A stretch of DNA of 64,000 nucleotides, from NCBI RefSeq assembly GCF_024628805.1, contig NZ_CP102382.1, forward strand, positions 2,666,001 to 2,730,000, given 5' to 3'. This document shows positions 30,517-32,998 of the stretch, in pieces. Position 1 is the first letter of the stretch. Every line of letters starts with the position of its first letter. Below the pieces are notes generated by a model that had not been told where the DNA came from, made no database searches, and saw nothing but the letters and a program-made list of their open reading frames with translations. The stretch comes from Paenimyroides aestuarii (GTDB taxonomy: Bacteria > Bacteroidota > Bacteroidia > Flavobacteriales > Flavobacteriaceae). Both the position numbers and the translations under genes were made by a program.

Positions 30517-31041
30517 TCATTTTTTTTTATAATTTTCGTAGCTAACGAGCTGAATTTTTCCAAACCCAAAATAAATTGTGGCTACTTCAATCAGTTTTTC
30601 ATCTGTCAAATCAAAATTACCATTTTCAAGAAGTTTGAGGTAGCAAAGTTCGTGGGCAATCGCAGCAATTACCCAGTCGGCATATTCAAAAACGGAAGCG
30701 TTGAAATTTAGACTATAGCGTTTGACAGGACTTTGATAGTCTGTCAGCGTGGATTTTTTCTCATTTTTAAACCGTAAAAAAATGGAGCTTGGGTTTTCAA
30801 CATCGTCTTCTGGATATTGCTCATAAAACATAAGCTCAATACGTTTGTGATTTAAGCTCATGTGCCGGGCAAGCATTTTCAGGACATTGTCGGCAGCCTT
30901 TAAAGGGTCTTTCCAAGAAAAGGGGAAATCTGTTTCCGTGAGTTCAAATATCTTTTTGTCCTCCGTGTCAAATTCAGGAAATTCTGCTTTTAATTGGTTT
31001 AGGTAGCTGTTTTTTTGTTTTTCTTCTTTATTCATATTCAT
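30517..31041 (-). CDS. Hypothetical protein with metallopeptidase-like HEL motif
   Basis: 174 aa, soluble. Residues about 138-150 read AIAHELCYLKLLE, the pattern of a zincin helix but with Tyr where the second zinc His of HExxH would be. An acidic segment DEKLIEVATIYFGFG follows, where zincins place their third ligand. It could be an inactive or atypical member, or an unrelated helix. The start could also be the ATG at 31035. The 81-bp repeat array begins 9 bp upstream. Confidence 0.6.
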   Translation of the reverse strand: MNMNKEEKQKNSYLNQLKAEFPEFDTEDKKIFELTETDFPFSWKDPLKAADNVLKMLARHMSLNHKRIELMFYEQYPEDDVENPSSIFLRFKNEKKSTLTDYQSPVKRYSLNFNASVFEYADWVIAAIAHELCYLKLLENGNFDLTDEKLIEVATIYFGFGKIQLVSYENYKKK

Positions 31042-31049
31042 TTATATCT

Positions 31050-31640
31050 ACCACATAGACACATAGTTGCGCATAGTTTTCTGTGTATATTAGCTATGTT
31101 TTCTATCATACTATGTGGTTTTATTTTTCTACCACATAGACACATAGTTGCACATAGTTTCTGTTTTCATTTACTATGTTTTCTATCATACTATGTGGTT
31201 TTATTTTTCTACCACATAGACACATAGTTGCGCATAGTTTTCTGTGTTTATTAGCTATGTTTTCTATCATACTATGTGGTTTTATTTTTCTACCACATAG
31301 ACACATAGTTGCACATAGTTTTCTGTGTTTATTAGCTATGTTTTCTATCATACTATGTGGTTTTATATTTCTATCACATAGACACATAGTTGCGCATAGT
31401 TTTCTGTGTTTATTAGCTATGTTTTCTATCATACTATGTGGTTTTAGTTTTTTCTACCACATAGGCACATAGTTGCACATAGTTTTTGCGTTCATTTTCT
31501 ATGTTTTCTATGATACTATGTAGTTTATTTTTTTTTACCACATAGACACATAGTTGCACATATTTTTCTGTATTAATTAGCTATGTTTTCTATGTGACTA
31601 TGTGGTTTATTATTTTTAACACATAGTTGCACATAGTTTT
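31050..31640. repeat. 81-bp palindromic repeat array, cluster A (7 units plus remnant)
   Basis: Units start at 31050, 31131, 31211, 31292, 31373, 31456 and 31537, with a truncated piece at about 31618-31640. Each unit opens ACCACATAG and closes CTATGTGGT (9-bp inverted ends, about 70 bp). Inside are further CACATAG and CTATG steps, and units are joined by an 11-bp T-rich spacer. Because 81 is divisible by 3, the array is open in several frames on both strands, but the translations are repeats and not real proteins. Confidence 0.93.
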
Positions 31641-31656
31641 CGTGCGAAATGCGGTT

Positions 31657-32067
31657 TTATTTCTCATCTAAATATTTGTACTTTTCTGTAACGTATGTCT
31701 TTTGTCCGTTATGAAAAATATTGGTACAATTGAAATTTACTAAAATTCCTTTAGGTGCGTCAAGCAATTTCAAATAAGTTATCAATTGGGCTTCGTGTAT
31801 CGGCAGCACCGCTTCCACGGCTTTTAATTCAATTACTAAACAATCTTCAACTAAAAAGTCAGCTCGCAATAACGCATCTAATTGCACATTGCGGTACTCA
31901 ATAGGAACGATAAGTTCTGAACTAAAACGGATGCCTTGATACTTAAATTCTTCAAGTAAACATTTGTGATAAACGCTTTCAAGTAATCCCGGTCCTAATG
32001 CATTGTGTACGGTGATACAACATCCAATCACTTTGTAAGTTAATTCGTCTAAATATTTCTTGGTCAT
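31657..32067 (-). CDS. GxxExxY protein (PD-(D/E)XK nuclease-like)
   Basis: 136 aa. The family signature GLLESVY is at residues 27-33. A nuclease-like core follows: RADFLVED (D70), VIELKA (E80, K82), then HEAQLITYLK (H91, Q94, K100). These match the D...ExK pattern of the PD-(D/E)XK fold. The ATG at 32067 is chosen because the longer frame (MCLCGRK...) is translated repeat sequence. The gene is enclosed by two clusters of the 81-bp palindromic repeat, 17 bp after its stop and 28 bp before its start. Function of the family is not established. Confidence 0.88.
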   Translation of the reverse strand: MTKKYLDELTYKVIGCCITVHNALGPGLLESVYHKCLLEEFKYQGIRFSSELIVPIEYRNVQLDALLRADFLVEDCLVIELKAVEAVLPIHEAQLITYLKLLDAPKGILVNFNCTNIFHNGQKTYVTEKYKYLDEK

Positions 32068-32094
32068 ATCGATTTGTTTTAGGCGCTTTTTTCT

Positions 32095-32409
32095 ACCACA
32101 TAGACACATAGCTGCACATAGTTTCTGTGTTCATTTGCTATGTTTTCTATGATACTATGTGGTTTTATTTTTCTACCACATAGACACATAGTTGCACATA
32201 GTTTTCTGTGTTTATTAGCTATGTTTTCTATCATACTATGTGGTTTTATATTTCTATCACATAGACACATAGTTGCACATAGTTTCTGTTTTCATTTACT
32301 ATGTTTTCTATGTTACTATGTGGTTTTAGTTTTTTCTACCACATAAGACACATAGTTGCAAATAGTTTTTGCGTTCATTTTCTATGTTTTCTATGTGACT
32401 ATGTGGTTT
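32095..32409. repeat. 81-bp palindromic repeat array, cluster B (4 units)
   Basis: Units start at 32095, 32175, 32256 and 32338, in the same orientation and with the same ACCACATAG...CTATGTGGT ends as cluster A. The last unit contains the stop codon of the lipoprotein gene at 32408-32998, so the repeats fill the whole gap between genes. Confidence 0.93.
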
Positions 32410-32998
32410 ATTCTTCCGTTTGAGCCATCAATTCAAGAAAATAGCTATGGAAATCGTTGATTTCTTTCGGAATTGTTTCTGAACCGATTTGATAGCTAAC
32501 TTGATAAAACCGATTGTTTCGGTACACTTTTAAACCTTTTGTTTGCCCATCATGAACGGGCGGACTGCCTGCTTCCTTGTTTTTTTGCTCCGCGAGTGTT
32601 TCCATCGGGATGGATTTAAGCTGTCGATGCAAGTTTTCCAATTGTTCGGTGGACAGTTGATAGGCTGCGGAACTGTAGGTGTTTCCCGGCAGTGAAATGT
32701 GCCCATCGGCATAAACTGCATAGGCATAACTGTGGCTTTCGGGAGCTCCGGGCGAAAGCGTTACTTCTAAAATGAGTTGGTCTTTTTTTGAATTCATTGT
32801 CGAGTTATTGTCTTTTTCGGTGTGTTGTGCACAGGCGTTGAACGTGATCAATGCAAGAAGCAACAGGACTATCTTGCTGAAGCGTAGGTTTGCGTGAGGG
32901 ATAGAAGCGGCATCCTTTTGTGGAGCGTAGCGGAACAAAAGATACAGCGGATAGCCCGCCCCGCCTTGGCGGGACACGCCCAAATGTTTATTTTCCAT
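32408..32998 (-). CDS. Putative lipoprotein with an inserted N-terminal palindromic element
   Basis: 196 aa. A lipobox-like core FSKIVLLLLALITFNAC puts the modified Cys at residue 56, far too deep for a lipoprotein signal. Residues about 8-39 (SRQGGAGYPLYLLFRY, then KDAASIPHANLR) are encoded by a GC-rich palindromic element at 32883-32981. Without it the start would read MENKHLG plus FSKIVLL, a normal 20-25-residue signal. So an element seems to have inserted in frame. The mature domain (about 70-195) is not recognised. It overlaps the upstream lipoprotein gene by 11 bp. Confidence 0.6.
   Translation of the reverse strand: MENKHLGVSRQGGAGYPLYLLFRYAPQKDAASIPHANLRFSKIVLLLLALITFNACAQHTEKDNNSTMNSKKDQLILEVTLSPGAPESHSYAYAVYADGHISLPGNTYSSAAYQLSTEQLENLHRQLKSIPMETLAEQKNKEAGSPPVHDGQTKGLKVYRNNRFYQVSYQIGSETIPKEINDFHSYFLELMAQTEE
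32883..32981. repeat. GC-rich REP-like palindromic element
   Basis: It contains two hairpins: CTTTTGT / ACAAAAG (32915-32921 and 32935-32941, loop 13 nt) and CCCGCC-TT-GGCGGG (32960-32973). It is far richer in GC than its surroundings. From memory, very similar blocks are scattered through Flavobacteriia genomes; only one copy is seen in this window. Confidence 0.6.

Follow-up and report, generated by a model that had tools for sequence, protein, structure and literature searches.

The window, a stretch of 64,000 nucleotides of the Paenimyroides aestuarii genome, carries a GxxExxY gene enclosed by 11 complete palindromic units of 69–70 bp and a remnant, which span positions 31050–32407 (Table 1). 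Seven units lie beyond the 3′ end of the gene and 4 before its 5′ end, in a single orientation throughout. The inverted ends of the units are 9 bp long (ACCACATAG / CTATGTGGT), with changes in a few units, and the spacers between them measure 11–13 bp. The word variant in this array is CACATAG. A sequence-only reading of this DNA had counted 7 units plus a remnant downstream and 4 upstream, in one orientation and with 9-bp inverted ends, all of which unit mapping bears out. It also proposed an 81-bp repeat with 11-bp spacers; the repeating array is there, but the unit is really a 70-bp palindrome plus a spacer of variable length. Similarly, the array does fill its gap, but more tightly than the 9–28 bp from genes first estimated: it runs from the stop codon (32408–32410) of ORF 32408–32998, on which unit 11 directly abuts, to 8 bp before the ATG of ORF 30517–31041.

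Table 1. Features of the GxxExxY locus, in window coordinates
Feature	Position	Strand	Remarks
Palindromic unit 1	31050..31119	+	70 bp; 8 bp before ATG of ORF 30517-31041
Palindromic unit 2	31131..31199	+	69 bp
Palindromic unit 3	31211..31280	+	70 bp
Palindromic unit 4	31292..31361	+	70 bp
Palindromic unit 5	31373..31442	+	70 bp
Palindromic unit 6	31456..31524	+	69 bp
Palindromic unit 7	31537..31606	+	70 bp
Half-unit remnant, two words	31619..31641	+	beside gene 3′ end
GxxExxY PD-(D/E)XK nuclease gene	31657..32067	-	likely start ATG at 32067; longest ORF to 32109
Palindromic unit 8	32095..32163	+	69 bp; 27 bp from likely gene start
Palindromic unit 9	32175..32244	+	70 bp
Palindromic unit 10	32256..32324	+	69 bp
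Palindromic unit 11	32338..32407	+	70 bp; abuts stop codon of ORF 32408-32998

The gene product matches TIGR04256 (E 4e-40; 136.8 bits against a curated cut-off of 35) and PF13366 (PDDEXK_3; E 1e-38; 132.4 bits against a curated cut-off of 22). The longest ORF begins with 5 codons inside unit 8, followed by 9 in the gap, which makes the ATG at 32067 the likely start. The D...ExK core noted earlier in the translation is indeed kept: among 17 aligned sequences D84 is invariant, as are Q108 and Y112, and E94 and K96 are present in at least 90%. In a Pfam scan at E≤0.001, PF13366 was the sole match, with neither Transposase_17 nor PF04754; Pfam and NCBIfam together yielded PF13366 and TIGR04256 only, and hence no known transposase domain. 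The model's best matches are PD-(D/E)XK nucleases; for a fold family beyond that class the matches are modest. A RecB/Cas4-like active site is part of our proposal below; a PDB search at E up to 1 returned no sequence relative.

Neither neighbouring ORF matched a Pfam or NCBIfam family above cut-off. No full-length match to ORF 32408–32998 turned up in the 60 other genus genomes searched, which left the window locus without an empty site for comparison. Matches to this ORF, mostly to its N-terminal stretch, occur in 19 of 61 genus genomes, with 3 matches (itself included) in its own genome. Those to window positions 32849–32971, which encode residues ~10–50, are scattered across the genus. The ORF probably reads through another dispersed repeat here, in which case its true start may be further in.

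The units are concentrated at the gene. With up to 3 mismatches allowed, ACCACATAGACACATAG is found 14 times in the window, whereas 100 shuffles average 0.14 matches. When one unit was searched by BLAST through the complete 2.96-Mb, one-contig genome, all 12 matches fell within ~680 bp of the conserved domain of the gene, and 10 of the 11 genome copies of the exact half-site ACCACATAGnCACATAG lie there too. The remaining copy is a lone ACCACATAGTCACATAG at G000:C1:561309–561325, far from any GxxExxY gene. A 198-bp piece of the 3′ cluster is found again in the 5′ cluster at 96% identity. Folded as single-stranded DNA, unit 3 with 2 extra bases reaches −8 kcal/mol (z −2.9 relative to shuffles).

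PF13366 occurs at two further places in this genome. At one (L001), an intact gene lies within one split palindrome of CACAAAG words, with ACCACAAAG..CACAAAG on one side and CTTTGTG..CTTTTGTGG on the other. The second (L003) is a decayed GxxExxY relic with degenerate CATAG-type words alongside; an apparent older palindrome remnant is also seen at L003:165–300. Since CACATAG stands at the window gene and CACAAAG at L001, the word varies between genes of one genome while the plan is constant.

GxxExxY genes are associated with a directed 7-bp word

We collected family loci from Flavobacteriaceae (25 of 120 genomes with a match), from Bacteroidota (122 of 247), from the best 80 matches of a contig scan and from further regions. 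Bacteroidota genomes hold up to 12 matches each, fragments counted. The first batch comprised 193 loci, 190 of them with a gene match (up to 12 of these being duplicates of the window locus), and 168 with a complete gene and flanks were kept. Each was given an inverted-flank score by aligning the 200 bp upstream with the reverse-complemented 200 bp downstream. The median score was 20; permuted pairs and 80 control ORFs both had a median of 12 (p 3e-48). Scores exceeded the control-ORF 99th percentile (18.8) at 98 of the 168 loci and the permuted-pair 99th percentile (25) at 40, the latter being a strict control because permuted pairs share words. Inverted flanks are absent at some loci, for example L282, L300 and L309.

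Word counts around the family genes yielded the consensus C-R-C-N-R-A-G/T. Directed at the gene and next to it, CRCNRAG occurs 1.14 times per 50 bp upstream and 1.62 times downstream. Beyond 500 bp this falls to ~0.05, placing the flank density 20- to 30-fold above background; directed away from the gene, the word reaches 0.19 upstream and 0.32 downstream. Spacing from word to word is mostly 8–12 bp with a peak at 9–10 and a second peak at 21, equivalent to one or two helical turns. At least one CRCNRAG lies on both sides within 150 bp at 118 of 168 loci, compared with 23 for words directed away and 14 for the reversed-word control. The looser word, ending in G or T, flanks both sides at 135 of 168 (away 35), with a reversed control that is higher in this batch (54 of 168) than for the strict word. 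The 81-bp repeat itself is local to the window, and it is the word and its architecture that form the general part. A chance origin of the repeats was ruled out by the shuffles, the inverted-flank scores and the word density around family genes.

A second batch of 80 lower-scoring loci gave 78 usable genes, after removal of one short flank and two duplicates and with one locus holding two genes. Inverted flanks were again found (median 19.5 against 11, p 3e-21), with 43 of 78 above 18.8 compared with 7 of 305 permuted pairs. The strict word stood on both sides at only 25 of 78 (away 6, reversed 6) and the looser word at 43 of 78 (away 10, reversed 16). Several divergent genes in this batch carry other words (for example CCGAAT or CACAGAT) on the same plan and some carry none. 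At three loci with divergent GxxExxY genes (L029, L300 and L312), GTCTGAA / TTCAGAC stands beside the gene in place of the CRC word. Eleven of the 12 loci titled as other phyla (Planctomycetota, Chloroflexi, Proteobacteria, Acidobacteria, Verrucomicrobia and one archaeal metagenome-assembled genome, MAG) have at least 3 words, all 12 being MAGs and possibly misbinned.

The control family TIGR02436 has the word on both sides at 2 of 30 loci (away, 4 of 30), and on this count we rejected the word as a general feature of gaps around small orphan genes. These loci (L427–L456) encode four-helix-bundle, 23S IVP-like proteins and are without the GxxExxY word. By eye, several of them (for example L448, L436, L428, L456 and L447) show inverted, seemingly phased words of their own, including GTATCAAGAT, CTTAGAA, TTGCCTA and TTGGTACA, and 8 of the 30 score above 18.8. 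They are possibly a second, parallel element class.

The position of the words bears on two other accounts of them. Phased, same-strand, lineage-specific sites just upstream of the start are what would be expected if the words were binding sites through which the protein controls its own transcription. Against such operators stand the downstream mirror arrays, which are denser in the first 50 bp, and the arrays that lie alone, away from such genes, so that this account is very unlikely. We regard as highly improbable that the palindromes are RNA-level spacers, terminators or mRNA-stabilizing operon hairpins unrelated to the nuclease. The fold of the window unit (z −2.9) would suit this, as would the co-directional neighbours at 173 of 223 loci, a count with no background rate. 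A hairpin, however, needs no helically spaced 7-bp word that crosses phyla and is tied to one protein family. Moreover, in gene-bearing elements its arms would be ~400 bp apart, and the control family has other sequences.

Word and protein also vary together. Among 119 loci with at least 2 words per side, the window excluded, the majority letters on the left and right agree at word position 2 in 103 cases, at position 5 in 101 and at position 7 in 113 (means for permuted pairs 61, 58 and 91); agreement at position 4 is less clear (81 against 66 permuted). On a protein tree of 152 loci with at least 3 words, positions 2, 5 and 7 change 20, 28 and 5 times, against 47, 53 and 17 when shuffled. 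Position 4 carries no signal on this tree (31 against 34 changes). In L019 numbering, the protein column with most information on word position 2 is residue 122; on position 5 it is residue 7 and on position 7 residue 113. The resulting rules pair A at position 2 with I122 and G with V122, pair A at position 5 with S/A7 and G with T7, and set G or T at position 7 against residue 113.

The rules were fixed and then run on the second batch, where 49 of the 78 loci have at least 3 words. They were right in 36 of 44, 33 of 44 and 33 of 43 cases (Fisher p 1e-5, 8e-5 and 0.01), the rows being related by descent and not independent. Excluded from these counts were 5 loci with other residues for the first rule, 5 with other residues or a T word for the second and 6 with a gap for the third; taken literally, with a gap read as G, the third rule is right in 34 of 49. 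Independent pairs, averaged over pairings, went the same way at position 5 in a mean of 4.7 and the opposite way in 0.2 of 11 pairs (median p 0.06). For position 2 the values were 2.3 against 0.9 of 10 and for position 7, 2.1 against 0.1 of 3. This phylogeny-corrected test has too little power, since so short a protein yields a weak tree. The window gene itself, with T7, N113 and V122 beside the word CACATAG, breaks all three rules. Hence the residue–word code may serve as a lead and is at best partial.

Presence and absence at operon junctions

In one genus (g166), 8 genomes could be compared at a single locus, L062. Four are filled (G219, G173, G145 and G280), one is decayed (G157) and three are empty (G292, G188 and G184). 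The filled genomes carry a ~450-bp element right after a TGA stop codon and before the next ATG, which in G219 reads ACCACAGAGGGCACAAAG – gene – CTTTGTGAACTTTGTGGTTAA and in G280 has additional sequence at the far end. In the empty genomes the ATG and the stop codon overlap or are at most 3 bp apart.

A junction in the genus of the window (g1), between methionine-aminopeptidase-like and methyltransferase-like genes (identities read from translations), was searched in 61 genomes, fetched from 58 and parsed in 50, with 8 left out. It is empty in 24 of the 50, with a gap of 0–30 bp and no word array; in 12 of these, the genome of the window included, the stop codon and ATG abut. Sixteen have a GxxExxY gene, always on the operon strand, and a further 2 contain part of such a gene. 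In another 2 the junction is occupied by gene-less palindromes (81 and 113 bp), one holds a 1.9-kb insert with an element-like beginning and 5 have other sequence. At the same operon junction an ~800-bp insert without a GxxExxY gene was seen in three genomes (L407, L408 and L418), and the junction may thus accept insertions generally. The G402 junction (L383) has a 145-bp insert with no CRC words and an inverted CCTGCAAGGTTTTCAAAACCTTG-like repeat, another palindromic repeat family.

Sorted by their words, the 16 genes at this junction form groups of 10 and 6. Median protein identity is 35% between the groups and 72 and 70% within them, which indicates that the two are real lineages. In the first lineage 71 of 73 words end in G, and in the second 43 of 44 end in T. 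Word and protein therefore differ together at a single site within one genus. The junction pattern could also have arisen by vertical descent with repeated loss. Ungapped flank identity at the junction (72% between types, 55% within one type) was discarded on account of register shifts.

The elements measure ~0.45–0.6 kb and are present or absent as whole units between the stop codon of one gene and the start codon that follows. A neighbouring ORF was found on each side at 223 of 246 loci, and at 173 of these 223 both are co-directional with the gene. The outermost word starts 0–20 bp past the upstream stop codon in 80 of 170 cases and, at the other end, stops 0–30 bp short of the downstream start codon in 75 of 165; like the neighbour counts, these are raw, with no background rate. 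This flush position in operons may reflect target choice, or it may be the survivor of selection. No clear target-site duplication was seen at the junctions read, where the ends are not base-exact.

Free-standing homing endonucleases spread by repair from a filled copy. If the GxxExxY gene were of this type, its nuclease would cut the empty junction instead of its own ends, and the words would be no more than by-products or binding sites. The presence of two divergent lineages at one junction, the lack of a visible target duplication and the coding of a nuclease alone all fit, and another PD-(D/E)XK gene, rpnC, is inferred in the available part of the source to have entered panC–panD twice (PMC5350276). 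The empty junctions, however, of 0–30 bp, have no word array, yet word and protein covary. Homing also leaves the inverted phased arrays and the gene-less palindromes elsewhere in the genome unexplained, and we consider it unlikely.

The precision with which elements are present or absent between operon genes suggests mobility, and this speaks against a defence or toxin nuclease for which the arrays would be self-recognition or decoy sites. PD-(D/E)XK nucleases are common in defence. In favour of such a role, Rpn proteins are reported, in the portion of the source available, as toxin–antitoxin systems that combat phage (PMC10327210). On the presence/absence pattern, a defence function of this kind for the GxxExxY gene seems highly improbable.

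Dispersed arrays and a probable compact mobile element

Gene and repeat were also compared across genomes. Of the 120 Flavobacteriaceae genomes, 5 contain ACCACAnAGnCACAnAG, and every one of these belongs to the 25 gene carriers (p 0.0003); read backwards, the pattern occurs in 5 genomes, 1 of which has the gene. Among Bacteroidota, three words at 9-bp spacing are found in 30 of the 122 genomes with the gene and in 9 of the 125 without it (p 0.0002). A hand count from the table, with some overlap, gives 201 matches in gene-positive and 19 in gene-negative genomes, and with the pattern reversed there are 27, spread over 3 gene-positive and 6 gene-negative genomes. The sequence-only reading had held that the link would be chance if the repeat were common in genomes without the gene or if the gene occurred mostly without repeats. 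Instead, the repeat is concentrated in carriers, and the looser word stands on both sides at 135 of 168 genes in the first batch and 43 of 78 in the second. A RAYT/REP-like selfish unit thereby gains strong comparative support. The same reading had also offered the repeats as substrates or products of the nuclease, which they may be.

Many arrays stand alone: 27 of 30 sampled loci, one per genome, have no GxxExxY gene within 1.5 kb. Of 25 sampled arrays in gene-positive genomes, 19 are accompanied by opposite-strand words no more than 120 bp away, and 4 fall inside open frames of 200 codons or more. The 5 sampled from gene-negative genomes include 1 with opposite-strand words and 4 in open frames over 200 codons. 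A single genome can hold 84 three-word matches (G356) or 36 (G300). The only GxxExxY gene of G300 has no words of the three-word type beside it, despite these 36 matches, and in only part of the genomes examined are the array words those of the resident gene; in several they differ. Both observations count against a simple model of action in trans. There was little sign of spread by phages or plasmids: one query matched 7 of 72,556 plasmid records, another 0 of 50,697 phage records, and two peptide patterns found 1 locus on viral contigs.

These comparisons establish the association of the gene with the word and its presence and absence at fixed places. Words that are mirrored, phased and lineage-matched, and that end an all-or-none unit, are as expected of the recognition sites of a mobile element. 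On this comparative evidence the GxxExxY gene and its flanking repeats probably form a single compact mobile element of the chromosome. It would use its PD-(D/E)XK nuclease much as RAYT/REP systems use an HUH enzyme. At both ends the phased words would be bound by several protein copies, in register on one face of the helix, and the RecB/Cas4-like PD-(D/E)XK active site would cut at the words, in duplex DNA or in an extruded hairpin. Host repair or replication would then copy or move the cut piece. Only a nuclease is encoded, so the joining step would come from the host, or there would be no such step. Gene-less units would be non-autonomous derivatives, comparable to the MITEs of transposons and the REPs of RAYTs, and in the window 11 of them would have multiplied in tandem around the gene.

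Insertion sequences and MITEs consist of a gene between inverted ends and its gene-less derivatives. The GxxExxY gene likewise lies between inverted ends and has gene-less derivatives at the same site; unlike insertion sequences, it has no known transposase domain, shows no clear target duplication at the junctions read and is rare on plasmids and viral contigs in the queries above. RAYT genes are flanked by two inverted palindromic repeats, repeats and protein covary, and REP-related repeats are scattered or accumulate near the RAYT gene (PMC2817692, in the passages available). IS200/IS605, the parent family of RAYTs, makes no larger target-site duplications according to the same passages (PMC2817692). 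The GxxExxY gene resembles this system in lying between inverted palindromic flanks, although not at every locus, and in the covariation of repeats and protein. The enzymes differ, an IS200/IS605-type domain (Pfam Transposase_17) in RAYTs as described in those passages and PD-(D/E)XK here. So do the repeats, which in GxxExxY are a mirrored array of 7-bp words at 8–12-bp spacing and not one hairpin. Repeats elsewhere in the genome reach the 84 three-word matches noted above, whereas all 12 unit matches in the window genome are at the gene. By analogy RAYT/REP would be the closest working parallel, but the enzyme domain that defines it is absent from the GxxExxY product.

Rpn or YhgA-like nucleases (PF04754) share the PD-(D/E)XK class and an inferred double entry into one intergenic place. 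They belong to another Pfam family, which GxxExxY does not match, and the available part of their description reports little, if any, sequence specificity in vitro and no cognate flanking repeats (PMC5350276). Within that part, Rpn is the nearest PD-(D/E)XK precedent that we found for recurrent entry into one operon gap. In the literature covered, no described role for GxxExxY genes was found; the passages there that name GxxExxY do not deal with repeats, and no paper links these genes to repeats or contains the word strings. The REP literature passages name no PD-(D/E)XK nuclease of this kind.

We tentatively propose that a single PD-(D/E)XK nuclease could mobilize itself and gene-less palindromes through helically phased 7-bp end words, with a readable protein-to-word code. 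This would be a new class of mobile element, a counterpart of REP/RAYT in several phyla that has long gone unnoticed. GxxExxY genes are common, with matches in 122 of 247 sampled Bacteroidota genomes, and the lineage-matched DNA word provides a proposed substrate for the family that is testable with short duplexes. If the proposal is true, a class of palindromic repeats would be explained and a small nuclease with traceably varying DNA specificity would be at hand. Moreover, the filling of bacterial intergenic DNA by REP-type repeats would then have a second enzyme superfamily behind it.
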